Assembly (NCBI GenBank): GCA_024404915.1
Contig: JAKSPJ010000001.1
Location: 62,001-126,000 of the forward strand
Reading direction: 5' to 3'
DNA length: 64,000 nucleotides
From: Oscillospiraceae bacterium
GTDB lineage: Bacteria; Bacillota; Clostridia; Oscillospirales; Ruminococcaceae
Shown here in pieces: positions 37,855 through 54,878 of this stretch. Both the position numbers and the translations under genes were made by a program. The notes beneath the pieces are model-generated. The model saw nothing but the letters and a program-made list of their open reading frames with translations. It did not search any database and was not told where the DNA came from. Each line of letters begins with the position of its first letter. Positions within the stretch are counted from its first letter, which is position 1.

Positions 37855-38577
37855 TTATACTGTTCCAAATTTCGAAAACGGCATCAGGCGGAACACTACC
37901 TTGCCGATCACTTCAGATTCCGGCACAAGTCCCACATCCGGGTGGCGGCTGTCCTTTGAAATGTGCCGGTTATCGCCCAGCACAAACAGGTAGCCCTCCG
38001 GAATGGTCAGCGGATAAGTAAACGCACCGTAGTCACGGTTTGTCAGGGTACTGGTATAGGGTTCATCCAGTGCCTGTCCGTCCACATAGACAATGCCCGA
38101 TGCAAAATCAATGTCCACAGTTTGTCCTTCCGCAGCAATCAGCCGCTTGACAATTTCTTTCTCAATGCCCGTCTGTTCCTTTACGTTGCCGCTTTCATCC
38201 AGCAAACAGGACTTCTCACTGTTGATAATCAGAATATCTCCGTCATCATATCGGGTGTGCAGACGGGAAACAATCAGTCTGTCGCCGTCTGTCAGTGTCG
38301 GCAGCATGGAATCGCCGTCCACATTGGCAACACAAAATAAAAACGTGAATACAAGAACCACCACAAAGACAGACAAAACCACAGATTCCACAAGGTCCAG
38401 AAAATCCTTCAGCAGTGCCTTCATATCGTAGGAATCTTCCTCGTCCTTTTTTTCAGAAGCCGGCTTTTCCTCTGTTACTGCCGTTTCACGGCTCTCAGCA
38501 GATTCAGCGCCGGAAATCGATTCTTCCGCTGCCTGCACCTGTGTTTCTTCAATGATATTATTTTCCTGCTGTTCCAT
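37855..38577 (-). CDS. lepB: signal peptidase I, second of a tandem pair
   Basis: A membrane-bound serine/lysine peptidase that removes signal peptides outside the membrane. The 240-residue protein has a long acidic cytoplasmic N-terminus (about 60 residues), one membrane helix at 62-84, the nucleophile Ser90 in VDGDSMLPTL, the general base Lys144 in EIVKRLIAAEGQ, and the late GDNRHISKDSR box. It is 23 bp downstream of a paralog, so this genome keeps two in tandem. Confidence 0.94.
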   Translation of the reverse strand: MEQQENNIIEETQVQAAEESISGAESAESRETAVTEEKPASEKKDEEDSYDMKALLKDFLDLVESVVLSVFVVVLVFTFLFCVANVDGDSMLPTLTDGDRLIVSRLHTRYDDGDILIINSEKSCLLDESGNVKEQTGIEKEIVKRLIAAEGQTVDIDFASGIVYVDGQALDEPYTSTLTNRDYGAFTYPLTIPEGYLFVLGDNRHISKDSRHPDVGLVPESEVIGKVVFRLMPFSKFGTV

Positions 38578-38600
38578 ATTCCATGCTCCTCATATCCTTC

Positions 38601-39314
38601 TCAGAATAAAAACGCAAAGCGGTCCTTCCAGTTCTGACAAAGCTCATCTGTTCTGTTATAGCGGAAAAATCCGGTACCCAGGATTTCATTTGTGGGAATC
38701 AGAGCCACAGAGGGACTGCGGCTGTCGGTGCTGTGCAGACGATTATCACCCATAACAAACACATATCCTTCCGGAATTGTAATAGGATAATGGAACGCAC
38801 CCTCATCCATGGTTGTGGGATCTGCAATATACGGCTCATCCAGTTCTGCGCCGTCCACCTTAACAATACCATTTTCAAAATCAATGTCCACTTCCTGGCC
38901 GCCATGTGCAATCAGACGCTTAATCAGCACAATACCCATACCCTGCGTCTCATAGACTTCTTTCTGGTCATAGTCCAGGTAGTGGCCGGAATACTGGTCA
39001 TCAATCACCACAATCTGTCCGTTTTTCGGCTGATAGCCACAGGTAAGAATCACGAGATTATCCTCATGGTACAGCGTCGGATTCATGGAACTGCCATCGA
39101 CGGTTACAGGGCGAAGAATATATGCAAATATCAGTAAAAACAGAAAAACCGTCAACAAGGCAGCTTCCAGAATATCCATCACATCTGCACCGAAGTTTTT
39201 CAGAGTGTAGGTATCTTCCTTCTGTTCCCCGGAGGCTGTCTCCGTGGTTTGTTCTTCCTTTGCTGCGGTTTCGGTTTGTTCTTCCAGCTTTATGGTATCA
39301 TCCTGCTCTGCCAT
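38601..39314 (-). CDS. lepB: signal peptidase I, first of a tandem pair
   Basis: A 237-residue paralog of the next gene. It has an acidic Thr/Glu-rich cytoplasmic tail (1-45), one membrane helix at 46-68, Ser76 in VDGSSMNPTL, Lys132 in VLIKRLIAHGGQ and the GDNRLHSTDSRS box. The substrate-pocket residues after the serine and the insertion near residues 105-125 (DDQYSGHYLDYDQKEVYETQ) differ from the second copy. The pair may therefore divide the cargo. It lies downstream of the rplS terminator and may have its own promoter. Confidence 0.94.
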   Translation of the reverse strand: MAEQDDTIKLEEQTETAAKEEQTTETASGEQKEDTYTLKNFGADVMDILEAALLTVFLFLLIFAYILRPVTVDGSSMNPTLYHEDNLVILTCGYQPKNGQIVVIDDQYSGHYLDYDQKEVYETQGMGIVLIKRLIAHGGQEVDIDFENGIVKVDGAELDEPYIADPTTMDEGAFHYPITIPEGYVFVMGDNRLHSTDSRSPSVALIPTNEILGTGFFRYNRTDELCQNWKDRFAFLF

Positions 39315-40456: not shown

Positions 40457-40514
40457 GGATATGGTTTCATATCCATAGAAAATAATTGACAACTTTCTGT
40501 TTTTCTGGTATAAT
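40457..40514 (+). promoter_or_regulatory. operator-like palindrome and promoter of the double-permease operon
   Basis: A perfect 7-bp inverted repeat GGATATG-GTTT-CATATCC (40457-40474) lies 11 bp upstream of TTGACA (40486-40491), which is 17 bp from TATAAT (40509-40514). The leader then holds two hairpins (TTTCCCC/GGGGAAA and GGCT-CGC/GCG-AGCC) before the AGGAGG site. No linked regulator gene is present. Confidence 0.7.
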
Positions 40515-40611
40515 AGTATAGATTATATAGAAACGATTTCCCCATTCATTTTCGGGGAAAGGCTACGCTTCCAGCGCAGCCTGAATAACAGCAAAAGGAG
40601 GAAAAGCCGTA

Positions 40612-43545
40612 ATGCCGTTTTCCCGTTCCAGTTCTGCATTTCATAACGTCATTCTGCACAAAGCTGCTCCGGCCGCTTTGTCTGTACTCTGTACAATGCA
40701 TCTTTGCTGTGTTTCTTTCCCGGAAACTGCCGCTGCATCATCTGCACAGACGGACGATACGCTTTATTCCCTTTCTTTTCAGCCCAATATCAGCTACAGC
40801 CGCTACTACGATACCTATTGCAGCAGCCTGAATCCGGATACGGAAATCCTGCTTTCAGGGGCAGACTTCTGCGGCACAGAGGGCGGAACCATTTCCGCAG
40901 GAGATTTCGGGGGAAAAACCGATGTCTGTATCTGGGAAAGTCTTGACGGCACCGTCAGCTACGATTTTGACGTGGCGGAAACAGGAAATTACTCCATTGA
41001 AATGCTGTACTACGCCATGGAATCCACCGCCAATCAGTCAGAGTTTTCCCTGATGATTGACGGTGAACTTCCCTTCGCGTCCGCTGCCCGTATCTGCCTG
41101 AACAAAATCTATGTGAATAAAACTGAAATCAGAACAGATACCCGTGGCAATCAGATTCGCCCCGCCCAGACAGAAAAGCCTGCCTGGCAGACACAGTTTC
41201 TCTATGACAAGGATGGTCTCTTCAATACACCCCTGATTTTCCACCTGGAGAAAGGACATCATACCATTACTCTCAAAGGCATCAAGGCAGCACTGGGAAT
41301 CGGCTCCATCCGCATTTGTCAGCCGGATTCCAATATTCGTTCTGAAACGCCGGATCCGTCTGCTCTGGAAAATACCCCCTCTGCCCTTCTGCGGCTGGAG
41401 GGCGAAAGTGCCGCCTGTAAATCCGCATCCACGCTGTATCCCGGATACGACCACAGCAGCTATACCGTTTCCCCCTCTGACCCCGTCAAAATGGTGTATA
41501 ACACCATCGGCGGTGCCAACTGGAATCAGGCCGGACAATCCATCACCTGGGAAATCGCTGCAAATGCTCTGCCCGGTGACGGCTGGTACAAAATCGGCAT
41601 CAAGGCACGGCAGGACACCATGCGTGGACTCTACTCCAATCGCCGCATTCTCATCGACGGCGAAATTCCCAATACCGCATGCAGTCAGGTGAAATTCTAC
41701 TACGACAGCAGCTGGAATCTGACCACCGTTTCTGACGGAGAAGAACCTGCGTACGTTTATCTGACAGCCAATGAAGCCCATACCCTGACCATGGAGGTCA
41801 TGCCGGGAGAAATCGGGGAATACATGCGGCGTCTGGAAGACGTGGTGACAGATTTAAACACCTGCTACAAGCAGATTCTGATGATTACAGGACCGAACCC
41901 GGATAAATACAATGACTACTATGTGGAGGAAAGCATTCCTACTTTAATCAGCGATTTTCAGCGATTGTCAGAAGCGCTGAAGGAAGCACAGAACGGCATT
42001 GAAACCCTTTCCGGTTCATTGGGCTCTGAGGCAGCCGCACTCCAGAGAATGTATGTGATTCTGGACAAGTGCATCAAAAAGCCAAGCCGCATTCCAAGCT
42101 ACGTTTCTCAGATTAAGGACCATATTTCCACCATTTCCACATTTATCTGCGACTACCGCAACCAGCCGCTGGAAATCGACTATATCGAACTGGCTTCTCC
42201 GGACCGGTCTTTCTCCTCCATCAAATCCAATCCTCTGAAACAGCTCGCATTTCAGTGCAAGGCCTTTGCAGGCTCCTTTACGGAAGATTACACCACCCTT
42301 TCCGATGTGGATCCGGAAGAGGAAAACGTCATTTCTGTCTGGGTGAATCTGGGCAGAGATCAGGCACTGGCAGTGAAAGATCTGGTAGAAAATGAATATG
42401 CCGTCGCTCATCCCGACACACCCATTGCTGTCAACCTTGTCGTCGGCGGCGTTGTGGAGGCTTCACTTGCAGGAGAGGGACCGGATGTGGCACTGTTTCT
42501 GGGCGGCGAATTCCCTGTCAACCTCGCCTGCCGTGGCCTGCTGGCTGATTTGTCACAGTTCCCGGATTATCAGCAGCAGATGACAGATTATCACCCGGAG
42601 GCCGCTGTACAGTATTCCTACAACGGCGGCGTATACGGCATGCCCCTGACACAAAGCTGGACAATGATGTTCTATCGTTCTGATATTCTCACAGAACTTG
42701 GCTATACGGAACTGCCCCGCACATGGGATGACCTGATTGATATGCTGCCGGCACTCCAGCGGAATCACCTGGGTATGGGACTGATTCTGCCCTCCACCAA
42801 TGTGGCAGCTTCCACGGAACCGGGACACACCTTTGCATCTCTGTTGCTGCAGCGGGGACTCAATTATTATAACGATGCACAGACACGCACACAATTTGAT
42901 GCGGTACCTGCAATCCAGTGCTTTGAAAAATGGACGGACTTCTACAGCGACTATCGTTTTATGCAGACCTATGATGCCTACAGCTATTTCCGTACGGGAC
43001 AGTATCCCATTGTGATTGCAAACTACAGCTTCTGCAATCAGCTTTCCGTGGCTGCTCCTGAAATCAAGGGACTTTGGGATTTCACCGTTATGCCGGGTAC
43101 GGTACAGGAGGACGGCACCATTAACCACGCCTCCAATTCCGGCGGCACAGGTGCTGTTATTTTCAATAAGGTGAAAAACAAGGATGCCGCATGGGAATTT
43201 GTAAAATGGTTCTGTTCTGCGGAGGTACAGGCCGAATATGGTGCAAAACTGGAAGGCCTGCTGGGACAGATGGGACGTTATGAAGCCGCCAGCACAAAGG
43301 CTCTGGCACAGCTGAACTGGTCCGCTGAGGAACAGAATCTGCTGATGGCCCAGTGGCAGTCACTGAAGGAGATTCCCGTTCTCCCCTCCTCCTATGCCGT
43401 AACCAGAAATATTATGAATGCATTTCGTGAAACGGTCAACTCCAATGAAAATCCCCGTGATACGCTGATGTACTACAACTGCGACATGAACGAAGAAATA
43501 CAGCGGAAACGAGAAAACCTCGGTTTAAAAAATGAGAAGGATTAA
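40612..43545 (+). CDS. extracellular solute-binding protein fused to two beta-sandwich modules
   Basis: First gene of the operon. The 977-residue exported protein has a signal peptide (about 1-43), two CBM-like beta-sandwich regions (about 100-240 and 258-400, the second opening ALLRLEGESAACKSAS), a helical segment rich in heptads (about 400-520), and a C-terminal MalE-like binding domain (about 570-977; NVISVWVNLGRDQALAVKDLV, YGMPLTQSWTMMFYRSDIL, NSGGTGAVIFNKVKNKDAAWEFVKWFCS). Ordinary sugar-binding proteins are 400-450 residues. There is no convincing lipobox. It presumably delivers a carbohydrate to the permeases downstream; the extra modules may grip a polymer or the wall. AGGAGG precedes the ATG. 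Confidence 0.85.
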   Translation: MPFSRSSSAFHNVILHKAAPAALSVLCTMHLCCVSFPETAAASSAQTDDTLYSLSFQPNISYSRYYDTYCSSLNPDTEILLSGADFCGTEGGTISAGDFGGKTDVCIWESLDGTVSYDFDVAETGNYSIEMLYYAMESTANQSEFSLMIDGELPFASAARICLNKIYVNKTEIRTDTRGNQIRPAQTEKPAWQTQFLYDKDGLFNTPLIFHLEKGHHTITLKGIKAALGIGSIRICQPDSNIRSETPDPSALENTPSALLRLEGESAACKSASTLYPGYDHSSYTVSPSDPVKMVYNTIGGANWNQAGQSITWEIAANALPGDGWYKIGIKARQDTMRGLYSNRRILIDGEIPNTACSQVKFYYDSSWNLTTVSDGEEPAYVYLTANEAHTLTMEVMPGEIGEYMRRLEDVVTDLNTCYKQILMITGPNPDKYNDYYVEESIPTLISDFQRLSEALKEAQNGIETLSGSLGSEAAALQRMYVILDKCIKKPSRIPSYVSQIKDHISTISTFICDYRNQPLEIDYIELASPDRSFSSIKSNPLKQLAFQCKAFAGSFTEDYTTLSDVDPEEENVISVWVNLGRDQALAVKDLVENEYAVAHPDTPIAVNLVVGGVVEASLAGEGPDVALFLGGEFPVNLACRGLLADLSQFPDYQQQMTDYHPEAAVQYSYNGGVYGMPLTQSWTMMFYRSDILTELGYTELPRTWDDLIDMLPALQRNHLGMGLILPSTNVAASTEPGHTFASLLLQRGLNYYNDAQTRTQFDAVPAIQCFEKWTDFYSDYRFMQTYDAYSYFRTGQYPIVIANYSFCNQLSVAAPEIKGLWDFTVMPGTVQEDGTINHASNSGGTGAVIFNKVKNKDAAWEFVKWFCSAEVQAEYGAKLEGLLGQMGRYEAASTKALAQLNWSAEEQNLLMAQWQSLKEIPVLPSSYAVTRNIMNAFRETVNSNENPRDTLMYYNCDMNEEIQRKRENLGLKNEKD

Positions 43546-43572
43546 CAATGGAAAGGAAGGTGAATCACGGTT

Positions 43573-44505
43573 TTGAAGCAATTGCAGAAAGAAGAAAAAA
43601 AGGCAGATCGCCGTCGGCTCTGGATTCGGATCAAACAGAATAAAGAGGCATATCTGATGATGCTGCCTTTTATGCTGGTATTCGTAATTTTCACAGTGGT
43701 GCCTGTGCTTATGTCACTGCCCATCGGCCTGACAGATTTCGATATGGTTACATATCCCCCGAAGTGGGTGGGACTGGATAATTTCTATCATCTTTTCCTC
43801 AATGACAGTATTTTTATCAAATCCATCCGTGTGACACTGGTATTTGCTATTTTCACCGGTCCCCTCAGCTATCTGCTCAGCTTTTTGCTGGCATGGCTCA
43901 TTAACGAGATGAATAAGACCATGCGTGTCATTTTCACTCTGATTTTTTATGCACCCTCCATGGCATCCGGTGTCTATGCCGTATGGCAGCTGATTTTCTC
44001 CGGTGACAGCTACGGCATTGCCAATTCTGCCTTGCTGAATCTTGGCATCACCACATCTGCCATTCAGTGGCTTACGGATTCACGCTATATCCTGACAGTT
44101 GTCATTATTGTTCAGCTATGGGTCAGCATGGGTGCAGGCTTTCTTGCCATGCGTGCCGGCTTCCAGAATATCGACCGGAGCCAGTATGAAGCAGGTGCCA
44201 TCGAAGGCATCCGCAACCGCTGGCAGGAGCTGATTTATATTACCATTCCGGGCATGGGGCCATCTCTGATGTTTGCCGCCGTCATGCAGATTGTATCTGC
44301 ATTTACCGCAGATATCGTCGCCAGAAATCTGGTCGGATTCCCCAGCACCGACTACGCCGCACATACTATCATGACACATGCCTTTGACTACGGCTGGATT
44401 CGTTATGAAATGGGCTATGCCTCTGCCATCTGCATGATTCTGTTCATTGCCATGTTTGCAGCAAACAAGTTCATCAGCAAACTGCTGGGCAAATATATGG
44501 AGTAA
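43573..44505 (+). CDS. sugar ABC transporter permease, MalF-type (first pair)
   Basis: A 310-residue inner-membrane permease with six predicted helices. The cytoplasmic EAA loop that contacts the ATPase reads QYEAGAIEGIRNRWQELIYITIP (in pieces about residues 205-227). A TTG start at 43573 is inferred after GGAAGGTGA, because no in-frame ATG lies close by. It pairs with the next gene. No ATPase gene is in the operon, so a shared MsmX-like ATPase encoded elsewhere would be needed. Confidence 0.9.
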   Translation: MKQLQKEEKKADRRRLWIRIKQNKEAYLMMLPFMLVFVIFTVVPVLMSLPIGLTDFDMVTYPPKWVGLDNFYHLFLNDSIFIKSIRVTLVFAIFTGPLSYLLSFLLAWLINEMNKTMRVIFTLIFYAPSMASGVYAVWQLIFSGDSYGIANSALLNLGITTSAIQWLTDSRYILTVVIIVQLWVSMGAGFLAMRAGFQNIDRSQYEAGAIEGIRNRWQELIYITIPGMGPSLMFAAVMQIVSAFTADIVARNLVGFPSTDYAAHTIMTHAFDYGWIRYEMGYASAICMILFIAMFAANKFISKLLGKYME

Positions 44506-44520
44506 AGGAGGCACTCTATC

Positions 44521-45411
44521 ATGACACAGCATACAACCAAAAAGAATACACAGAAAATGAAAGCCTCCAATCGCCGTGCAGGCAGAAAAATCGGCGGCAC
44601 AATCTGCATTTTTCTGTTTCTTCTGATTCTCGGCACCTTCATGATGCTCCCCATCTGGCTGATGATTGTCAACTCTTTAAAGCCTGTCAATGAGATGTTT
44701 ATCTTTCCGCCGAAGTGGTACACCCTGAATCCCACACTGGATAACTTCAAGGATACCTATCGTGTCCTGGGGCAGATGTGGGTTCCCTTTTCCCGATATG
44801 TATTCAACAGCATCTTTGTAACGGCGGCTGTCACCATTCTGCAATGTGTATTTGCCTCCATGGCGGCATTCTGTCTGGCAAAGGTTGATTTCCCGGGCAA
44901 TAAGCTGATGAACGGCATCATAGTCCTGGCACTGCTTTATAACAGCAATGTCATCTACCTGATGCAGTACATGGTTATGTCAGAACTGCATATGATTAAT
45001 ACTATGTCGGCCCTGATTTTTCCTTCGGTGGCTTCCACCATGGGGCTTTACCTGATGCGGCAGTCCATGTCATCTGTTCCGGATGCCATGATTGAAGCCG
45101 CAAAAGTGGACGGCGCAGATCTCTTTACAATCTGCTGGCGCATTGTGATTCCCAATCAGAAGCCTGCACTGATGACAATGGCAATCTTCGCCTTCCAGGG
45201 TGCATGGAATATCACCGGCGGCAGCGTGGTTTATGATGAATCCCTGAAAACACTGCCCACCGTCATTCAGCAGGCTGCATCTGCCGGCATCTCCCGGCAG
45301 GGCGTCACCATGGCAGCAGCAGTTATTCTCTTTGTGCCGCCTGTGCTGTTCTTCATCCTGGCACAAAGTCAGGTTATGGAAACCATGGCACATTCCGGTA
45401 TCAAAGACTAA
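44521..45411 (+). CDS. sugar ABC transporter permease, MalG-type (first pair)
   Basis: A 296-residue permease with six helices and the EAA loop IEAAKVDGADLFTICWRIVIP near residues 192-212. The PPKWYTLNPTLDNF segment after the first helix is typical of MalG-like proteins (CUT1). AAAGGAGG precedes the ATG, 15 bp after its partner. Expected to form a heterodimeric channel with the upstream permease. Confidence 0.9.
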   Translation: MTQHTTKKNTQKMKASNRRAGRKIGGTICIFLFLLILGTFMMLPIWLMIVNSLKPVNEMFIFPPKWYTLNPTLDNFKDTYRVLGQMWVPFSRYVFNSIFVTAAVTILQCVFASMAAFCLAKVDFPGNKLMNGIIVLALLYNSNVIYLMQYMVMSELHMINTMSALIFPSVASTMGLYLMRQSMSSVPDAMIEAAKVDGADLFTICWRIVIPNQKPALMTMAIFAFQGAWNITGGSVVYDESLKTLPTVIQQAASAGISRQGVTMAAAVILFVPPVLFFILAQSQVMETMAHSGIKD

Positions 45412-45438
45412 TATTCCTGCGGAAAGGAGGCCTTCACC

Positions 45439-46962
45439 TTGCAACATCTTACCAAACGTGCACTGCGCTTCTGTGCGGCAGGGGTTTTCACCGCCGCTGC
45501 ACTGTGTTCTTTTGCCGCAGTGCCTGTATCCGCAGACGAACCATACGATGTCTATAACTACAACTATCTCGGGGAAGCGGTACCCTCCCAGGCAGGATAT
45601 CTGGCCAGCCGGACGGTTTCAGGAACAGACCTGAATACCACGGCATGGAACGACCCTTCCGACCTATGCAGGGATGCGGATGACCTGTTCTATCTGGCGG
45701 ATTCCGGAAACAACCGCATTTTGCAGATTGACAGCAGCTTTCAGAAAGTGCTGAAAATCTACGATACCTTCACTATGCCGGATGGCTCTGAAACCACACT
45801 CAATCATCCGAAAGGGATTTATATTTCCCCAGATACGGGCCTCATGTACATTGCGGACAACGAAAATGCCCGTGCGCTGATCTGCAGACAGGATGGCTCT
45901 GTGGTTATGGAACTGACAAAACCGGATTCCAATGTATATGACCAGGATCTGACATTTCTGCCGCAGAAGATTCTCTGCGATAATGCGGGCAATGTGTATA
46001 TCATTCTGAACAATACCACGAAGGGTGCCGCCATGTTCGATGCCGATGGCACGTTCATCGGTTACTACGGTGCCAACCATGTGGCGGCAACTGCCCAGGT
46101 CATTGCCAATCATTTCTGGAACGCCATTGCTTCCGAAGAAGAAAAACGCTATCGTGCAAGAAGTACACCAACTGCCTTTGACAATTTCGATATTGACACG
46201 GTGAAGGGCTTTATTTTCACCTCCACCTCTTCCGCCTCCTCTGATACGGATATTGTAAAAAAAGTCAATCCGGAGGGCTATAATCTATTCAGCTATATGT
46301 CTGATTTCCGCTGGGGAGATTTGTTCTCCACCTGGTATTCCGGAAAGAACTACAAGACCAAAATCGTGGATATTGATATTGGCGATGACGGTTCCATTAA
46401 TTGTCTGGATGCCACCACAGGCAGAGTATTCCAGTATGACAAAGAAGCAGATCTGCTGTTTATCATGGGTACTGTGGGTGACCAGGTAGGCGGCTTCACA
46501 GCAGGCAGTGTCTCTGCACTGGAAACCAGGGGCGAAAACTGCGAAACCATTTATGTGCTGGATTCCGCCAAGGGCACGGTGACTGTTTTTGAGCAGACAG
46601 TGTTCGGCAGTATTGTACACGAGGCAGATGCCCTGTATAATGGCGGCTATTACCAGGAGGCACTGGAACCCTGGATGGAAGTACTGAAGCGGGACGGCAA
46701 TTACCGACGTGCCTATCTGGGTATTTCCAGCGCATACTACAACATGGGAATGTATAAGGAATCCATGGAGTACGCCAAAAAGGCAGATTCCTCCCAACGC
46801 TATAACCGTGCCTTTGAACGGTATCGCTCCCAGTGGCTGAAGGCGCATTTCACTGCCATACTGGCAGCCGCTGCAGCCCTGTTTGCCGCAGTATACGGAT
46901 GGAGATATCTTGGAAAAAAGCGACACATTCCCGGAAAAGACAAAGGAGGTAATGCTTCATGA
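45439..46962 (+). CDS. secreted NHL-propeller/TPR protein with C-terminal membrane anchor
   Basis: A 507-residue exported protein, TTG start after AAAGGAGG. Order: signal peptide 1-32; NHL-type beta-propeller about 68-385 ([40 protein letters not shown] and similar repeats, in pieces); TPR-like helices about 393-450 ([36 protein letters not shown]); one membrane helix 469-492; basic tail. The propeller and TPR would face outside, tethered to the membrane. It may act as a scaffold for the transport complex; that is inferred from position between the permease genes. No enzyme signature is evident. Confidence 0.8.
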
Positions 46963-47588
46963 TGGATCTGACCCAGCCCCAATGGGTGAAACATGTTGTG
47001 TTCCATCCCTTTGAAGGCTTTGAGGATTTGCGCTGGAAAAAAGGCGGTTCCCTGAAATATACCGCTGTCATTATTTTCCTGCTGTTCTTCGCCCTGATTG
47101 CCTATGATCGCTGGTGCGGTTTCCAGTTTCGTCCCCTGCCGGATGCCATGTTCAATGTTGTACCCTATATCATGCGCTCCGTAGTATATTTTCTGACATG
47201 GGTCCTGGGCAACTGGGCTGTCTGTACCCTTCTGGACGGGGAAGGCACAATGAAAAACATCTGCATCTACAGCTCTTATGCCCTGATTCCCTACATTGTG
47301 TCTACCTATGTCAATGTCATTCTGTCCCACATTCTGGTACGGGATGAGCAGGTTTTCTTTTCCACGGTGTATTATATCGGCCTGATCTGGACAGGGATAC
47401 TGCTGTTTTCTGCCATTAAGGCTGTTCATCAGTATTCTTTCGCAAAAACAGTCACCGCCATTCTGCTGACGCTGGCCGCCATGCTGATTATTCTGTTTCT
47501 GGCAGTGCTGTTTCTCAGTCTGTTTCAGAAGGTCTATGTATTCTTCTATTCTCTCTATACAGAAATTCTGTATCGCATTCGTGTTTGA
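46959..47588 (+). CDS. Yip1-like multi-pass membrane protein
   Basis: A 209-residue integral membrane protein with about five helices. The N-terminal [16 protein letters not shown] box and the following [30 protein letters not shown] pattern (in pieces) resemble bacterial YIP1-family proteins. Its ATG overlaps the upstream stop (ATGA) after AAAGGAGG. Function unknown; bacterial Yip1-like proteins are often found in operons with transporters. Confidence 0.8.
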
Positions 47589-47602
47589 AAGGCGGTGAAA
47601 TC

Positions 47603-49951
47603 ATGCAGAAACCGAACTTTCTTTTTTGTATGCTCTGCACAGCTGCACTGTCACTTTCCACTTTTTCCGCCCCTCTTTCCGGCTTTGCCGCAGAAGACGC
47701 TGAGGAAGAAAGCGGCAGCTCTGCCGTCACGGCCGATGAGGAGCCCTGGTCTGAACGCACCCCCTCCGATGTATTCGCAAAAATGAAAAAAGCGGCTGAA
47801 AATGATAAGCTGGAATTCTGGATATGGGATGCAGACCTGTGCGATTCCGACAACGGAGATCAGCCGGAAGATATTTTTGCCCTGGTGAATAAGTCAAACG
47901 GCTATGTCTGGTGGTCATCCCCCATCAATGCCGGGGGCGATGCCATTGCAACACCGGTACTGAAAAACGAACTGCAGTCCGGCCTTGTGCTGACTGCTGC
48001 TCAGATTCACGATCGTTCTACACAAAACTACCGCTCCGGTGATTCCAACAAGACCGTCCGCACATTTTCAGATATCCCCAACGGCGTTCAGGTGACCTAT
48101 TTCTTCCGCAAAAGCGGCATAAAAATCCCGGTCTCCTATGTGCTGAAAGAGGACTATCTGGAAGTATCCGTGGATACGGAAAAAATCAGTGAAAAGCATG
48201 GCCCGGAGGACGAAAAACCGGTGCTTACCCAGGCACTTTCCATTTTGAATGCCTTTGGTGCTGCTGACGAACAGGAAGAGGGCTATTTTGTAATTCCTGA
48301 CGGAAGCGGTGCCCTGATTCAGTTTCACAATGAAAAATATGCCGCCAAGCCCTACAGCCAGATGATTTATGGCGTGGATACCACGGCTGTTCCCAAAACA
48401 AAAGGAGCTGTGACAGAGGGGGTTTCCCTGCCCATGTACGGCATTTGCAAGGGTGAAAATGCCCTGCTGGCAGTGGCGGCAGAAGGCGACGGCAACTGTG
48501 CTGTCTGCGCCGATATCAGCGGAACAGGACAATCCAACACGGAATACAACCGCTGTTATTTTCAGTTTATTCTTCGCAGTTCTGACCAGTATTTTCTTGG
48601 GGGTGACCAGCAGAATCCTCTGGATATCTATGCGAAATCCATTGAAAATCATCCGCTGAAAGTGCGGTATTATCCCCTTTCTGCGGCAGATGCGGTAAAT
48701 CAGGACAAAGGGGAAGTACTGGATTATGTGGATATTGCAGCAAGATACCGCCAATATTTAATAGAAGAACAGCATGTTGCACCCAAAGCTCAGAAAGAGG
48801 ACGCACAGCTGTATATTGATTTCTACGGCGGCTGCATGAAGCAGAAAAATATTCTTGGATTTCCCAAATTCATGAAGCAGTGCATGACCTCCTATGCTGA
48901 AATGGAAACCGTTCTTTCGGATTTACAGGCAGCGGGGGCTGACAATCTGACTGTCACCCTGAACCAGTGGAACGATGATGGTATCAGCGGAAAGGCAGAC
49001 TACAAAACCAAGGCGTCTTCTACCCTGGGAGGTACCTCCGCATTCCGGCATCTGCTGCAGTATATGGACAGCAATCAGATTACCTGGTATCCCTGTGTCA
49101 GCAATACGGCTTTCTATTCCGGAAATGGTTTTCTTGCCCTGAATGATACATCTGTGCGTGTATCAGGCTCCTTCGCACGCATCGTGGATTATGAACGTGC
49201 CTACGGCGTTCCATACGGCAAAAAGAAAACCATGTCTCTGCTTTCTCCAAGCGTTTTTCCACAGCTGTTTCAAAAACTCAGCAGCAATTATCAGAAGGCC
49301 GGATTTCACAGTGCATGCATCGGCGAACTCTCCTCTGTTCTTTACGGAGACTACGGCAAAAAATCCAATACGCCAAGAGAAGATACCAAAAAAAATATCA
49401 CGGATGGACTGCAGAATCTGAAGGAAAACGTGGGCAGTATTCTCTCCAGTGATCCCAACGCCTATGTACTGCCCTATACGGATACCATAACGAATATGCC
49501 GCTGTATTCCAGCCGATTCCATATTTTTGATGAGGATATTCCTCTGTATCAGATGGTCATGCACGGACTTGTGCCCTATTCTACAAAGGCGGTCAACGGC
49601 AGTGCAGCCCCGGAACAGCTGGTCCTGCTGGCGCTGGCAGCCGGCAGCAATCTGCGTTTTGACATGATGTATGCGGAAACCAGCGAATTGAAAGATACAG
49701 ATTTTGACGTTTATTATTACGCTTACCACGCATACTGGACAAAAAATGCAGCACAGTATTATCTGTTCACCAAGGATATCCTGGCTTCTGTCAGTGATGC
49801 GGCAATCATCAGCTATCAGCGCACAGATGATATCATTACCACGAAATATGACAACGGCGTTACAACCGTTGTCAGCCTGTCGGATGGTTCCGTCAGCTGG
49901 AACGGACAAACACGCCGCCTGAAGGATTATGTTAAGGAAGGAGATGCATGA
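47603..49951 (+). CDS. large exported DUF5696-like protein
   Basis: A 782-residue secreted protein: signal peptide about 1-30 (ending near GFAAEDAEE), beta-rich N-terminal half (about 60-390) and a C-terminal half that could be a TIM barrel (from LYIDFYGGCMKQKNILGFP near residue 405 through TVTLNQWNDDGISG and ITWYPCVSNTAFYSG). I recall this layout as DUF5696, which occurs beside sugar permeases in Firmicutes. The order of strands suggests a glycosidase-like fold, but I cannot name catalytic residues. The start is ATG 47603 after AAAGGCGGTG. Its end overlaps the next gene. Confidence 0.7.
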   Translation: MQKPNFLFCMLCTAALSLSTFSAPLSGFAAEDAEEESGSSAVTADEEPWSERTPSDVFAKMKKAAENDKLEFWIWDADLCDSDNGDQPEDIFALVNKSNGYVWWSSPINAGGDAIATPVLKNELQSGLVLTAAQIHDRSTQNYRSGDSNKTVRTFSDIPNGVQVTYFFRKSGIKIPVSYVLKEDYLEVSVDTEKISEKHGPEDEKPVLTQALSILNAFGAADEQEEGYFVIPDGSGALIQFHNEKYAAKPYSQMIYGVDTTAVPKTKGAVTEGVSLPMYGICKGENALLAVAAEGDGNCAVCADISGTGQSNTEYNRCYFQFILRSSDQYFLGGDQQNPLDIYAKSIENHPLKVRYYPLSAADAVNQDKGEVLDYVDIAARYRQYLIEEQHVAPKAQKEDAQLYIDFYGGCMKQKNILGFPKFMKQCMTSYAEMETVLSDLQAAGADNLTVTLNQWNDDGISGKADYKTKASSTLGGTSAFRHLLQYMDSNQITWYPCVSNTAFYSGNGFLALNDTSVRVSGSFARIVDYERAYGVPYGKKKTMSLLSPSVFPQLFQKLSSNYQKAGFHSACIGELSSVLYGDYGKKSNTPREDTKKNITDGLQNLKENVGSILSSDPNAYVLPYTDTITNMPLYSSRFHIFDEDIPLYQMVMHGLVPYSTKAVNGSAAPEQLVLLALAAGSNLRFDMMYAETSELKDTDFDVYYYAYHAYWTKNAAQYYLFTKDILASVSDAAIISYQRTDDIITTKYDNGVTTVVSLSDGSVSWNGQTRRLKDYVKEGDA

Positions 49952-50876
49952 ACCTGTGAAAATGCCATATGAACGCAGAAAAGCACTCTACGGATACGGG
50001 TTTATCTCCATCTGGCTGATCGGCACAGTCCTGTGGTTTCTGGTGCCCTTGTTCGAGTCCTTTTGCTATTGCTTTATGGACAACACGCTGCTTCGGCCGG
50101 ACGAAGGCGGCATGAAAAAAATCTGGCTTTCTTTTGCAGGAGGACAATGGCTTTCCAATTTTAAATTTGCCTTTGCCGCTGACCCTTATTTTAAACAGTA
50201 TCTCATTTCTGTATTGAAGGATACTGCACTGACCACGCCCATGATTCTCATTTTCTCCCTGTTTATTGCTGTCATTCTGAATCAGAAATTCAAGGGCAGA
50301 GGCTTTGCCCGTGCCATATTTTTCCTGCCTGTGATTATTGCCACAGGACCTGTGTACAATATTATCAGCGGTGATATTGCCGCAACAGGCGCAGACAGCG
50401 GCGCACAGTTTTCCACCCTGTTTGAAACGGATATCGTGGATAAACTGCTGGAGTTTCTCGGTGTCATGAATATCAACGCACAGCTGACCGATGTAATTAA
50501 TTCCGTTGTCACAAATATTTTCGGTCTGGTCTGGAGTTCCGGCATTCAGATTCTCATTTTTCTGGCAGCGCTGCAGAATATCCCTGTATCTGCTAAAGAA
50601 GCCGCTTCTATGGAGGGGGCAACCGCCTGGGAATATTTCTGGAAAATTACGCTGCCCTATGTCAGCCCCATGATTCTGGCCAATTTCATTTACACCATCA
50701 TCGACTCTTTTACAAAAACAAACAATGCTGTTATGGCCCGTGTGCTGGAAAAACAGCTGGGCTGGGATTTTGCACAGGCGGCCGCTATGGCATGGAGCTA
50801 TTTTGCCATTGTCATGATTGTGGTGGGCATTATTGTAATGCTGATGAACCGCTATGTGTTCTATGAAGTGGATTAA
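49944..50876 (+). CDS. sugar ABC transporter permease, MalF-type (second pair)
   Basis: A permease of about 310 residues with six helices and the EAA loop AKEAASMEGATAWEYFWKI plus LPYVSP. The start is uncertain: AAGGAAGGAG ends at 49943, directly before ATG 49944, and an in-frame GTG at 49956 is better spaced. Either way the gene overlaps or abuts the DUF5696-like gene. It is clearly diverged from the first MalF-type copy (longer loop with AATGADSGAQFSTLFETD), so it is not a recent duplicate. Confidence 0.88.
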   Translation: MHEPVKMPYERRKALYGYGFISIWLIGTVLWFLVPLFESFCYCFMDNTLLRPDEGGMKKIWLSFAGGQWLSNFKFAFAADPYFKQYLISVLKDTALTTPMILIFSLFIAVILNQKFKGRGFARAIFFLPVIIATGPVYNIISGDIAATGADSGAQFSTLFETDIVDKLLEFLGVMNINAQLTDVINSVVTNIFGLVWSSGIQILIFLAALQNIPVSAKEAASMEGATAWEYFWKITLPYVSPMILANFIYTIIDSFTKTNNAVMARVLEKQLGWDFAQAAAMAWSYFAIVMIVVGIIVMLMNRYVFYEVD

Positions 50877-50887
50877 GGAGGGATGAC

Positions 50888-51994
50888 ATGAAGAAAAAAA
50901 CAGCTCTCCCTGTCCAGGAAACACCCGTCACACCCGCACCGGCGGCTTCGGAACGTGCACAGGTTCCGGATTCCGCAATACCGGTTGTCCACGAGGAGCA
51001 TGTCATCGGTGACGGCATGAGCAAAAAAGAAGCTATGCAGAAACGCATGCAGAATATGACTCGTTCCGAAATCAATGCACTGCGGCGAAAACAAGCCATG
51101 GAAGCCTGCTGGCCCGTGTTCCGTTTCCTGATTCTGTTCGGTCTGGGCTTCGTGATTCTCACACCGCTGCTGTTCATGATCAGCTACGGCTTTCGTGATA
51201 ATGCGGATATGCATGACCCCACCATTATCTGGATTCCACGGCACCTTACTCTGCGGATTATGAAGGAAACCATGAAGGCAATGGGCATGATGCAGTCTAA
51301 AAACAACCCCATTATCAATACACTGGTGTTAAACGTGGGATGTTCAATATGCCAGGTCATCACATGCGCCATTACAGGATACGGCTTTGCACGGTTTCAG
51401 TTCAAAGGAAAAAAACTGCTCTTCGGCATCGTCATTCTTATGATTCTCGTCCCCACGCAGATTATCTCCATACCACTGAACAGTACTTTCCGCCATTTCC
51501 TCTTTGACCATTTCAATCTGATTGACAGCATGCTTGCTATGTACCTCCCTGCACTGACTGCCAACGGCATCCGCTCCGGACTGATGATTTTTATTTTCAG
51601 ACAGTTTTTCCGTGGCCTGCCGAAAGAGCTGGAGGATGCGGCATATCTGGATGGCTGCGGTCCCTTCGGCACATTCTGGAAGGTCATGATTCCGAATGCA
51701 GGTTCCTCTTTCCTGACGGTGTTCCTGTTTTCGATTGTATGGTACTGGAATGATTATTATGTCGCCAGTGCATTTTTCACCAACCTGAAAACCATATCTC
51801 TGGTATTGAAGAATCTGGACGGCACACTGAACCTTTCCATTTTCAACAATGCCAACGCCAATATCAGTGCAAGAGAAAAAATTGTCTGGCTGGAAGCAGG
51901 CTGTCTCATCTCCATCACACCGCTGCTGATTCTGTATACCTGTCTGCAAAAGTATTTCACAGAGGGCATTGAGCGTTCCGGTCTGGTGGGATAA
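50888..51994 (+). CDS. sugar ABC transporter permease, MalG-type (second pair)
   Basis: A 368-residue permease. About 75 extra cytoplasmic residues lie before the first helix (Pro/Ala/Glu-rich, then SKKEAMQKRMQNMTRSEINALRRKQAME, in pieces), which is long for the family (about 280). The EAA loop reads EDAAYLDGCGPFGTFWKVMIP. TAAGGAGGG precedes the ATG. It is the last gene of the operon, followed by a strong terminator. The N-terminal extension could bind the ATPase or another partner. Confidence 0.9.
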   Translation: MKKKTALPVQETPVTPAPAASERAQVPDSAIPVVHEEHVIGDGMSKKEAMQKRMQNMTRSEINALRRKQAMEACWPVFRFLILFGLGFVILTPLLFMISYGFRDNADMHDPTIIWIPRHLTLRIMKETMKAMGMMQSKNNPIINTLVLNVGCSICQVITCAITGYGFARFQFKGKKLLFGIVILMILVPTQIISIPLNSTFRHFLFDHFNLIDSMLAMYLPALTANGIRSGLMIFIFRQFFRGLPKELEDAAYLDGCGPFGTFWKVMIPNAGSSFLTVFLFSIVWYWNDYYVASAFFTNLKTISLVLKNLDGTLNLSIFNNANANISAREKIVWLEAGCLISITPLLILYTCLQKYFTEGIERSGLVG

Positions 51995-52038
51995 ATAAAG
52001 TTGAAAAGGTCGATGCAGTCAGCCCTGCATTCTACTGC

Positions 52039-52078
52039 AAAAAAAGGAACTCACGTCATAAACGTGAGTTCCTTTTTT
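52039..52078 (+). terminator. terminator of the double-permease operon
   Basis: A 17-bp stem (A-rich foot, then GGAACTCACG with CGTGAGTTCC) around a 7-nt loop and a T6 tract. It also faces the convergent CotH gene. Confidence 0.93.
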
Positions 52079-52091
52079 GCATTTCAATTTC

Positions 52092-54878
52092 TCAATCCAC
52101 ACGGGCAACGATACGCAGAATCATTGCTACATCGCCGGATTCCAGTGCGCCGTTTCCGCTGACTTCCGCATTTTGCTTGCCCTGAACGGTCACATTGGCT
52201 TCACGGTCCTCTGCCAGATAACGTGCCAGAAGCACAGCATCGGATACGTCCACATTGCCATCACAGTTGACATCACCACGCAGCGTCACATGGCCCTGCT
52301 GCTGGGAAGAATTTGTTGTGGTTGCAGTAGTCTGTGTTGTTGTGGTGGTTGTGACTGTTGTTGTGGTGGTCACATCCGGCCCTGTGGAAACGGGGCTGCC
52401 CTGTGCATACACCGCCTGAATAGTCACCTGATTGCTGTTTGGCAGCAATTCCATAGATACGGAAGATGCATCGCCGCTGATGAATTCTGCGCCTTCCACA
52501 ATCCATTTTTCCAGATGCCAGCCATCATTCGGCTTGGCCTTCAGTGTCAGAACACCGTCTTTTGCATATACACCTGTCCAGCTGCCGTTTTCACATGCCA
52601 GATCCAGTGTGTTGAATTTCACATAGCCCTTGGAAGCATCGTTTTTCAGCACCACGTTTACAGTCTGCGTACTGATTCCGCCGCCAATGCTTTGCAGCAG
52701 CATGGATTCTGATGCCGTTGCACGGCTCTTCCAGAAGGAGCGAATTGTCTCGACCTCTGTCCTGAACTTACTAACAGCCTTTGTCAGTGCATCGTTCTGA
52801 TTGCCCTGGCCCGGCTGCTGCTGTCCCGGACCGAAATTCCAGCCGCCGCCCCAGGGATTGTCATTGCCCCAGCCATAGCGTACATAGGTCTCTGCCATAG
52901 AATCTGTATACAGTTTTTCCAGTTCGTCCAGGCGTGCGACCACATCATCTGCTTTATAGCAGGCATTGCACATGTCGAAATATGTGCGGAGGAACAGCTG
53001 ACGGAATTGCTCTGTTTCCATCAGGCCGAAGAACAGCTTTGGGAGCCATTCATTTTTCTGTTTCAGAGTCTGGTATGTGTTGGTGTAAGCATTGCTCTGG
53101 TTGTAAAGGCCCTGACCATACTCCGTATCAAACAGAATGAAACGCCACTGACCGTCCGCATATTTCTTGCTTTCATCGATAACCTCTGTTTTCCACAGAG
53201 CGTAGTTGTTGGAACCAAAGTCGGAATTGCCTACGATCAGTTCTGCTGCAAAATAATCTGCAAGGCTCTTCATATCAAACAGCGGCGCATATTTTTCATA
53301 GACACCCTCATTCCTGAAGTTCTCTGACATCACCATGTTTTTCAGCTGTTTGTAATCATTATATCCCTGTTCACTGCCCTCTGAAAGCTCGTCTGTTTTA
53401 ATCATGCAGACGCTGCCTTCTTTCACCTTGAAGTGGTCAGAGATATACTCTTTGCCCAGCTTTTCCACAATGTTATATGTGCCCCAGAATTCGCCGTCAA
53501 TAAACAAAACGCATTCTATCTGTCCCTGCGTACCAATCTGGCGGTCAGTCACCATCTCGTGATTCAGTCTGTCACGGATTTTTGTTTTCTCATCATTGCC
53601 GCCGTTGCGAAGTGTCAGTCTGCTGAAGGACTGAATCGGCTCTCCCTTGTGATTGGTCAACTGGCCATTGAAGAAATCGTAATCCAGCTTGGAAGTGCCA
53701 TAATCTGTTCTGGCGTAGAGATTCAGGCTCTTCTGCACGGAAGAACGGGTTGCAGCACCGTGAATACGAATACCCACATTTGCCTGATAGGTGGACTGTC
53801 CTTTTTCAAATACGGTGATATTTGCAGGACGCTCCCATTCGCTGCCGGTCTGGGTATAATTGGCAGGATGATTCCAGGATTCCATGGGATTGCCCTGGCT
53901 TTCGCTGTAAATCCTGCCCTTGCAGTAGATGCCTGTTTCATAATCAAAGAGGTTATCCGGATCTGTTACCAGAGAAATCACACGCATATTCATTTCACAA
54001 TCGCTCTGGTTATATCCGATAAAATAGCTCTTTGTAACAATATTGCTTCGTTTGCCGTTGGCATCAAAGGCGGCTGCACGGACAATCATTGCCTTATCCA
54101 CGGGGGAAGAAGGCGGCGTATAACCATCTGCAATGTCCGTGATGGCGGCATACACATTTGCCTCAGATGACCTGTCATACACTTTGATAGAGCCATTCAG
54201 CTGCTGGGACTGCATCGTGGGGTCACTGCCGTCTGTGGTATAATACACAGTACAGCCCTGGGGTGCCGTGATATTCAGTTCAAAGCCATCATTGTAGAAA
54301 CCGCTTTCCTTGGAAAACTGCGGCTCGCTCACGATGATATCTGCGTTCTGTCCCTGAGGATTATTGCTGCCGGGCGTAAGCTGCTGCAGCACAGCAAAGG
54401 TACTGCTTCCGTCTGGCACTCTGCCATAGGCGGTATTGTCACTCAGTGCAGGAACCTCCATGGTTTCCACCATATTGCCCTGCGGATTGGAGAGAATCAG
54501 GGTTTCGCCGCTTTTGGATAAACCAAAGGAGGCACCCTGGACACCGCTTTCCTCGCTGACACCGCAGTACACCACGAGATATCCTTTCGGGGGAATCACG
54601 CTGTTCTCCGGGAAGGTATAGCGCATCGGCGCTGCCTCATCATCCGTCAGGCCGTAACCTGCAAGAGAAACCTGTGTATCTCCCGTATTGTAAAACTCCA
54701 CATAATCATAAAGTCCGCCATCCGATGCAGGCAATGCTGTGTTTTTCGTACACACTTCATTGATTACCACTGCATCCGCTGCCCATACGATGAGCTGCGG
54801 CATAGCAGACAAGGAACCCATCATCAGCACTGCGGCACTGCCTACTGCTCCGCTTCGCTGAAAGAATCGCTTTTTCAT
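52092..54878 (-). CDS. secreted CotH-like protein with LTD module and dockerin
   Basis: A 928-residue exported protein. Order: signal peptide 1-34; lamin-tail-like domain about 36-160 (VVINEVCTKNTALPASDGG..DYVEFYN); chitobiase-type beta domain 178-290 (YYTTDGSDPT); CotH kinase-like domain about 300-720 (RIHGAATRSSVQKSLNLYAR, LFDTEYGQGLYNQ near 582); beta module to 825; Thr linker 836-856; dockerin 866-928. CotH of Bacillus spores is a protein kinase, and CotH modules are known in ruminococcal cellulosomes. The second dockerin loop (EVSGNGALESGD) is degenerate. A Gly/Gln/Pro-rich stretch near 675-695 is an insertion. It may phosphorylate or bind cellulosomal partners. Confidence 0.9.
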   Translation of the reverse strand: MKKRFFQRSGAVGSAAVLMMGSLSAMPQLIVWAADAVVINEVCTKNTALPASDGGLYDYVEFYNTGDTQVSLAGYGLTDDEAAPMRYTFPENSVIPPKGYLVVYCGVSEESGVQGASFGLSKSGETLILSNPQGNMVETMEVPALSDNTAYGRVPDGSSTFAVLQQLTPGSNNPQGQNADIIVSEPQFSKESGFYNDGFELNITAPQGCTVYYTTDGSDPTMQSQQLNGSIKVYDRSSEANVYAAITDIADGYTPPSSPVDKAMIVRAAAFDANGKRSNIVTKSYFIGYNQSDCEMNMRVISLVTDPDNLFDYETGIYCKGRIYSESQGNPMESWNHPANYTQTGSEWERPANITVFEKGQSTYQANVGIRIHGAATRSSVQKSLNLYARTDYGTSKLDYDFFNGQLTNHKGEPIQSFSRLTLRNGGNDEKTKIRDRLNHEMVTDRQIGTQGQIECVLFIDGEFWGTYNIVEKLGKEYISDHFKVKEGSVCMIKTDELSEGSEQGYNDYKQLKNMVMSENFRNEGVYEKYAPLFDMKSLADYFAAELIVGNSDFGSNNYALWKTEVIDESKKYADGQWRFILFDTEYGQGLYNQSNAYTNTYQTLKQKNEWLPKLFFGLMETEQFRQLFLRTYFDMCNACYKADDVVARLDELEKLYTDSMAETYVRYGWGNDNPWGGGWNFGPGQQQPGQGNQNDALTKAVSKFRTEVETIRSFWKSRATASESMLLQSIGGGISTQTVNVVLKNDASKGYVKFNTLDLACENGSWTGVYAKDGVLTLKAKPNDGWHLEKWIVEGAEFISGDASSVSMELLPNSNQVTIQAVYAQGSPVSTGPDVTTTTTVTTTTTTQTTATTTNSSQQQGHVTLRGDVNCDGNVDVSDAVLLARYLAEDREANVTVQGKQNAEVSGNGALESGDVAMILRIVARVD

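Follow-up and report, generated by a model that had tools for sequence, protein, structure and literature searches.

A conserved Firmicutes operon that probably encodes two CUT1 glycan importers and a membrane-tethered accessory set

Here we describe an eight-gene operon (positions 40457-52078, + strand) in a stretch of 64,000 nucleotides from an Oscillospiraceae bacterium, hereafter the window. The operon probably encodes a cell-surface glycan-uptake cassette in which two CUT1 importers are combined with a membrane-tethered accessory set, the second permease pair serving as a hub, with a shared ATPase and plant-derived ligands. The cassette is found in about one-tenth of the sampled Firmicutes genomes and in about a quarter of the sampled genomes of the window's family. 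It occurs in bacteria of gut and soil, fibre degraders of the rumen and gut among them, and three of its eight genes are without an assigned role.

The eight open reading frames are co-directional and bounded by one promoter and one terminator, with intergenic gaps of 27, 15, 27, -4, -4, -23 and 11 bp, in order. This bears out the layout given in a first-pass annotation of the window (eight genes on one strand, short gaps or overlaps, a single promoter and terminator). The promoter is an extended -10 sigma-A element (TTGACA-17-TATAAT with TG; 40486..40514, +) that matches the consensus at 12 of 12 positions. It is unique in the window, even when two mismatches are allowed, and a perfect -35/-10 pair lies near the start of the first gene in seven of ten orthologous loci. 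A LacI-type operator guessed beside it (GAAACGATTTC) was dropped, as orthologues are without it. The intrinsic terminator hairpin (about 52036..52080, +; dG -27.4 kcal/mol, z -7.5) lies between the operon and a convergent gene (52092-54878, -) whose 928-aa product combines LTD, CotH kinase and dockerin domains and is an extracellular CotH protein of the cellulosome type. Upstream of the operon, the opposite strand carries a tandem pair of type I signal peptidase genes (Peptidase_S26; 37855-39314, -) and a gene that by inspection encodes an L19-like ribosomal protein. Signal peptidases flank the cassette in loci L063, L065, L069 and L071 as well.

The first gene encodes a 977-aa solute-binding protein (SBP1; 40612..43545, +), followed by a MalF-type permease (F1; 43573..44505, +; BPD_transp_1 E 4e-7) and its MalG-type partner (G1; 44521..45411, +; E 2.4e-6). 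Three non-transporter genes come next, for an NHL/TPR protein (45439..46962, +), a Yip1-like protein (46959..47588, +) and a DUF5696 protein (47585..49951, +). The operon ends with a second pair, F2 (MalF-type; 49929..50876, +) and G2 (MalG-type; 50888..51994, +; BPD_transp_1 E 4.3e-17). Family matches of the eight proteins are SBP_bac_8/1, four BPD_transp_1, NHL with weak TPR, Yip1 and DUF5696. EAA loops were located by inspection of the translations in F1 (EAGAIEG), G1 (EAAKVDG) and F2 (EAASMEG), and G2 carries EDAAYLDG. The nearest NCBIfam models of the four permeases are UgpA/UgpE, GlcT/GlcU and MalF/MalG. Assignment to CUT1 rests on the SBP_bac_1/8 binding protein, the MalF/MalG pairs with their EAA loops and the presence in the genome of a MalK/MsmX-type ATPase.

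None of the eight genes encodes an ATPase, a regulator or a classical CAZyme. Family searches of the genome, on which all own-genome counts rest, found one MalK/MsmX-type ATPase gene with OB_MalK and TOBE_2 domains (G000:C31:65995), in agreement with the earlier expectation of an MsmX-like ATPase elsewhere. The same searches returned two more CUT1 importers, on contigs C30 and C31, each a MalF/MalG pair with its own binding protein (missed by PF01547), and the idea that the cassette is the genome's only CUT1 system was dropped. In the window's family, a 330-aa ABC ATPase that lacks the MalK-type OB/TOBE domains is encoded near the cassette at L109:398-1387, and nine other loci have related ORFs.

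A sample of 398 genomes across Firmicutes contained 39 with DUF5696 (PF18952) above cut-off. In the window's family the count was 35 of 100, some of these being weak partial matches, and full-length copies were found in 27 of 99 family genomes, the window's own genome not counted. Synteny was assessed at 53 DUF5696 loci, four of which (L061, L066, L088 and L095) are truncated by contig ends. All eight functions were present at 46 of the 49 evaluable loci, 42 by a strict script and four by inspection (L067, L068, L072 and L093, which have the full order and over-long ORF bounds). The synteny across Firmicutes that the first-pass annotation had set as a check is thus found, and its view of the operon as a glycan-linked module holds: the module is real, syntenic and tied to glycan uptake. 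F2 and then G2 lie downstream of DUF5696 in essentially all 53 loci. SBP1-F1-G1 is absent beside the core in L081, L082 and L086 and sits after G2 in L089 and L092, while the NHL/TPR, DUF5696, F2 and G2 genes hold together in all five. Because SBP1-F1-G1 alone goes missing or moves, the constant core is NHL/TPR-Yip1-DUF5696-F2-G2, which SBP1-F1-G1 accompanies nearly always. L081 and L082 are two such cores on one contig of genome G062, about 26 kb apart, each consisting of an NHL/TPR-Yip1 fusion, DUF5696, F2 and G2.

The NHL/TPR protein has a signal peptide, an NHL propeller (NHL E 2.3e-10), TPRs and a C-terminal membrane helix; a profile search of the PDB with it hits both NHL-propeller and TPR structures. 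The Yip1-like protein (Yip1 E 2.4e-14) is a multi-pass membrane protein. In nine of the 53 loci the two are a single protein of 670-835 aa; because of these fusions they probably form one membrane-anchored unit. Of the earlier proposal that they organise the complex, the part borne out by the nine natural fusions is the link between the two proteins themselves. We infer an accessory role for this unit and DUF5696. It most likely lies with importer 2, in presenting, holding or trimming glycans, because the three remain neighbours of F2-G2 also in the loci from which SBP1-F1-G1 is missing or in which it has moved.

The DUF5696 protein is exported (PF18952 E 2e-154), and an ATG start at 47603 (782 aa, the length given in the first-pass annotation) is more likely than the TTG at 47585 (788 aa). 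A literature search found no paper mentioning DUF5696; the present analysis assigns it a fold and a genomic context and proposes a role that can be tested. Searched against the PDB, a 36-member DUF5696 profile matched the GH129-related entries 5opq (E 3.6e-11), 8rzk (E 4.7e-11) and 5wzn (E 7.7e-7), and hhalign paired it with a PF11308 protein (L142) at a probability of 96.9% over residues 71-784. An AlphaFold model from 14 sequences was of moderate quality (pLDDT 51.9, pTM 0.55) and was used for fold ranking alone; a single-sequence model (pLDDT 33.5) was discarded. With the 14-sequence model, Foldseek placed GH129 at the top (E 1.8e-9), and VIA-align gave GH129 structures Z scores of 19.1 (5opq), 18.5 and 17.8 (5wzp), against 10.6 for the next family. 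The protein thus has the GH129 fold, and as a name for its fold GH129 is right.

Like the GH129 enzymes NagBb (5wzn) and ZgGH129 (5opq, 8rzk), DUF5696 runs from an N-terminal sandwich through a barrel to a C-terminal domain. Identity to them is about 13%, however, and PF11308, the Pfam family of GH129, matches neither the window protein nor any of the 36 profile members. Among 54 DUF5696 members, none of the acidic residues in the barrel is invariant, the best kept being D589 (49/54), D649 (46/54) and D633 (32/54). The positions altered in the quadruple mutant of NagBb (5wzq, compared with wild-type 5wzn) are likewise unconserved, a further departure from NagBb. Because no barrel acid is invariant, catalysis by DUF5696 is unproven. 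An active GH129-type exo-glycosidase that trims glycan side chains before uptake would be compatible with two importers, and it has in its favour both the fold and the name GH129 given to the protein in the operon of Caldicellulosiruptor bescii (PMC8579813). The missing PF11308 match, the variable barrel acids and the unconserved mutant positions nevertheless make this activity doubtful. A glycan-binding protein or pseudo-enzyme is plausible.

SBP1 has a signal peptide and no lipobox; 20 SBP1 relatives, some with over-extended ORF starts, likewise showed no lipobox within their first 60 residues. The solute-binding domain of SBP1, at the C-terminal end, is of the SBP_bac_1/8 type (E 1.5e-25), and its N-terminal region of about 500 residues, which includes a coiled-coil-like linker stretch, is related to CBM35/CBM6-like modules. 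The CBM-fused binding protein described earlier is supported at the level of the family: the N-terminal region matches CBM_35 in eight of 21 members (best E 1.4e-8), and also CBM_6, and the window copy on its own matches neither.

A second class of binding protein (SBP2) is associated with the cassette. Of the 53 loci, 19, mostly from lineages other than the window's family, contain extra binding-protein genes, 25 in all. Nearly all of these share the strand of the cassette; they usually lie right after G2 or immediately 5' of SBP1, and at locus L080 five stand one after another. In the window's family most loci, the window's own included, have no cassette-adjacent extra gene. The window's own genome encodes an orphan SBP2 lipoprotein on another contig (G000:C12:169906-171306; SBP_bac_1/8 type, E 7.6e-11), in which inspection shows a VSGC lipobox and around which about 8 kb are free of permease genes. 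In BLAST searches it groups with the cassette-adjacent binding proteins and not with those of the genome's two other CUT1 systems. When 18 genomes from other families that carry the cassette were searched with it, it gave 12 matches below 1e-10, of which 10 are cassette-adjacent as judged from coordinates; these include all three in G335 and the sole match in C. bescii, at the AxoE position.

Across 99 family genomes, SBP2 and the cassette occur together in 21, SBP2 alone in five, the cassette alone in six and neither in 67 (odds ratio 47, Fisher P 8e-12, a statistic that ignores phylogeny). A control binding protein from the same genome gave an odds ratio of 7.3 with the cassette, so the co-occurrence partly reflects shared lifestyle; when genomes are stratified by the control, the SBP2 link persists in both strata. 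A genome of the window's family may hold as many as eight or more SBP2 paralogues, at scattered sites. About 55 of them were inspected, in 41 regions, some on short contigs and a few from genomes without the cassette, and a MalF/MalG-type permease was found within the fetched flank in just one region. Their neighbours point to no single pathway: AraC-type regulators make up 7 of 68, and there are a few GH5, GH94 and GH31 enzymes. At locus L189 (G407:C5:29949-42787) at least six intact SBP2-type genes, accompanied by fragments, stand in tandem and have no permease close by, and the same genome has one full-length DUF5696. Upstream of the orphan SBP2 of the window's genome, at L135:3028-5730, is an exported BNR/Sortilin-type protein that looks GH74-like by inspection, a possible hint at xyloglucan.

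The first-pass annotation had proposed one envelope machine, in which SBP1 alone serves both permease pairs. One binding protein and two pairs, tightly spaced in a single operon, fit that proposal, as does the like arrangement in most Ruminococcaceae relatives, and a single binding protein is literally what the operon contains. It is probably not what the system contains: a second one is cassette-adjacent in other lineages, the window's genome keeps a homologous orphan, and the core persists in the five loci in which SBP1-F1-G1 is absent or moved. We therefore regard the single machine as improbable, and two importers as more likely. Importer 1 would consist of SBP1, apparently non-lipidated, and F1-G1; importer 2 would be F2-G2, fed by the SBP2 lipoprotein encoded on C12. 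The expansion and dispersal of the SBP2 family in related genomes would make F2-G2 a hub permease. The single ATPase at C31:65995 probably powers both importers, and the NHL/TPR-Yip1 unit and DUF5696, at the outer face, would hold, hand over or trim oligosaccharides, likely for importer 2. That SBP2 is the partner of F2-G2 in this genome, and that one ATPase is shared, is what we infer. Against two importers stand the six family genomes with a cassette and no SBP2, the five with SBP2 and no cassette, and the identity of only about 27% between the orphan and its cassette-adjacent homologues; the C30 and C31 importers could be the partners of the orphan in place of F2-G2.

The gene string itself has a published counterpart. 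The xylan degradation locus of C. bescii reads xloEFG-X-GH129-axoFGE followed by xyn genes, is xylan-induced and is under XynR/AraR control, and MsmK is the shared ATPase of the CUT1 importers of this organism (PMC8579813). In the C. bescii genome of our set (G179) the cassette lies at 212,375-223,471. The XynR operator of the xylan degradation locus, published for Athe_0174 (PMC12285236), lies at L115:205-224, 151 bp upstream of SBP1, its single occurrence among all fetched loci, and downstream of the cassette are, in order, a binding protein, GH43, GH10, GH39 and GH10. Because of this operator and these neighbours, the cassette in C. bescii is the published xylan-uptake locus. The earlier statement that no function is described for the set was thus too strong, although no paper describing how widely the cassette is conserved came up in a literature search, and protein 'X', the NHL/TPR-Yip1 counterpart, is given no role in the xylan locus. 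A putative connection with the R. albus 7 genes Rumal_1426-1429, which are induced on cellulose (PMC4300822), was considered and not retained.

Because of the C. bescii locus and the CBM-like modules, the likely ligands in the window's organism are plant cell-wall oligosaccharides of the xylan/hemicellulose type. Import of a non-plant glycan, such as an envelope polysaccharide of the cell itself or host mucin sugars, would suit the perfect-consensus promoter, which looks constitutive, the action of functionally characterised GH129 enzymes on mucin or carrageenan (PMC8106489, PMC6923384) and the flanking glycosidases, which differ by lineage (GH26, GH95, GH3), but is quite unlikely given that the C. 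bescii locus is induced by xylan and adjoins xylanase genes, and given the CBM35/CBM6-like region of SBP1 and the dockerin protein adjoining the operon.

The two-importer reading has a bolder extension, which we put forward tentatively and hold to be less likely true than false: F2-G2, with the NHL/TPR-Yip1 unit as scaffold and a non-catalytic GH129-fold protein, would accept many interchangeable, scattered binding proteins and thereby many plant glycans. Such a hub would give Firmicutes a counterpart of the utilisome, one whose capture subunits can be exchanged. It would explain the many permease-less sugar-binding lipoproteins of gut Ruminococcaceae and would alter genome-based prediction of their substrate range.

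The cassette can be set against several known systems. The SusC TonB-dependent porin and SusD lipoprotein of SusCD-type utilisomes are absent among its eight proteins. A Gram-positive polysaccharide utilisation locus comprises transporter, CAZyme and regulator; the window locus falls outside that definition, being made up of transporters and accessory proteins with signal peptidases and the CotH/dockerin protein as neighbours. Closer are the CUT1 importers of Bacillus, Streptococcus and Caldicellulosiruptor that share MsmX or MsmK. These likewise have a binding protein, MalF/MalG permeases with EAA loops and no dedicated ATPase, one MalK-like ATPase being encoded elsewhere. Unlike them, the cassette has two permease pairs in one operon together with NHL/TPR, Yip1 and DUF5696 proteins, a CBM-fused SBP1 without lipobox, and scattered SBP2 paralogues. 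The closest system is the C. bescii locus. There, NHL/TPR is fused to Yip1, AxoE (SBP2) is encoded just after G2, xylanases come next and XynR is in control, whereas in the window's genome the homologue of SBP2 lies on a different contig and the operon is without xylanase or regulator. From Athe_0174 onward, however, the C. bescii genes have the same order as those of the window, with SBP1-F1-G1, NHL/TPR-Yip1 ('X'), DUF5696 ('GH129') and F2-G2. F1-G1 corresponds to XloFG and F2-G2 to AxoFG, and in both organisms the ATPase (MsmK in C. bescii) is encoded elsewhere.
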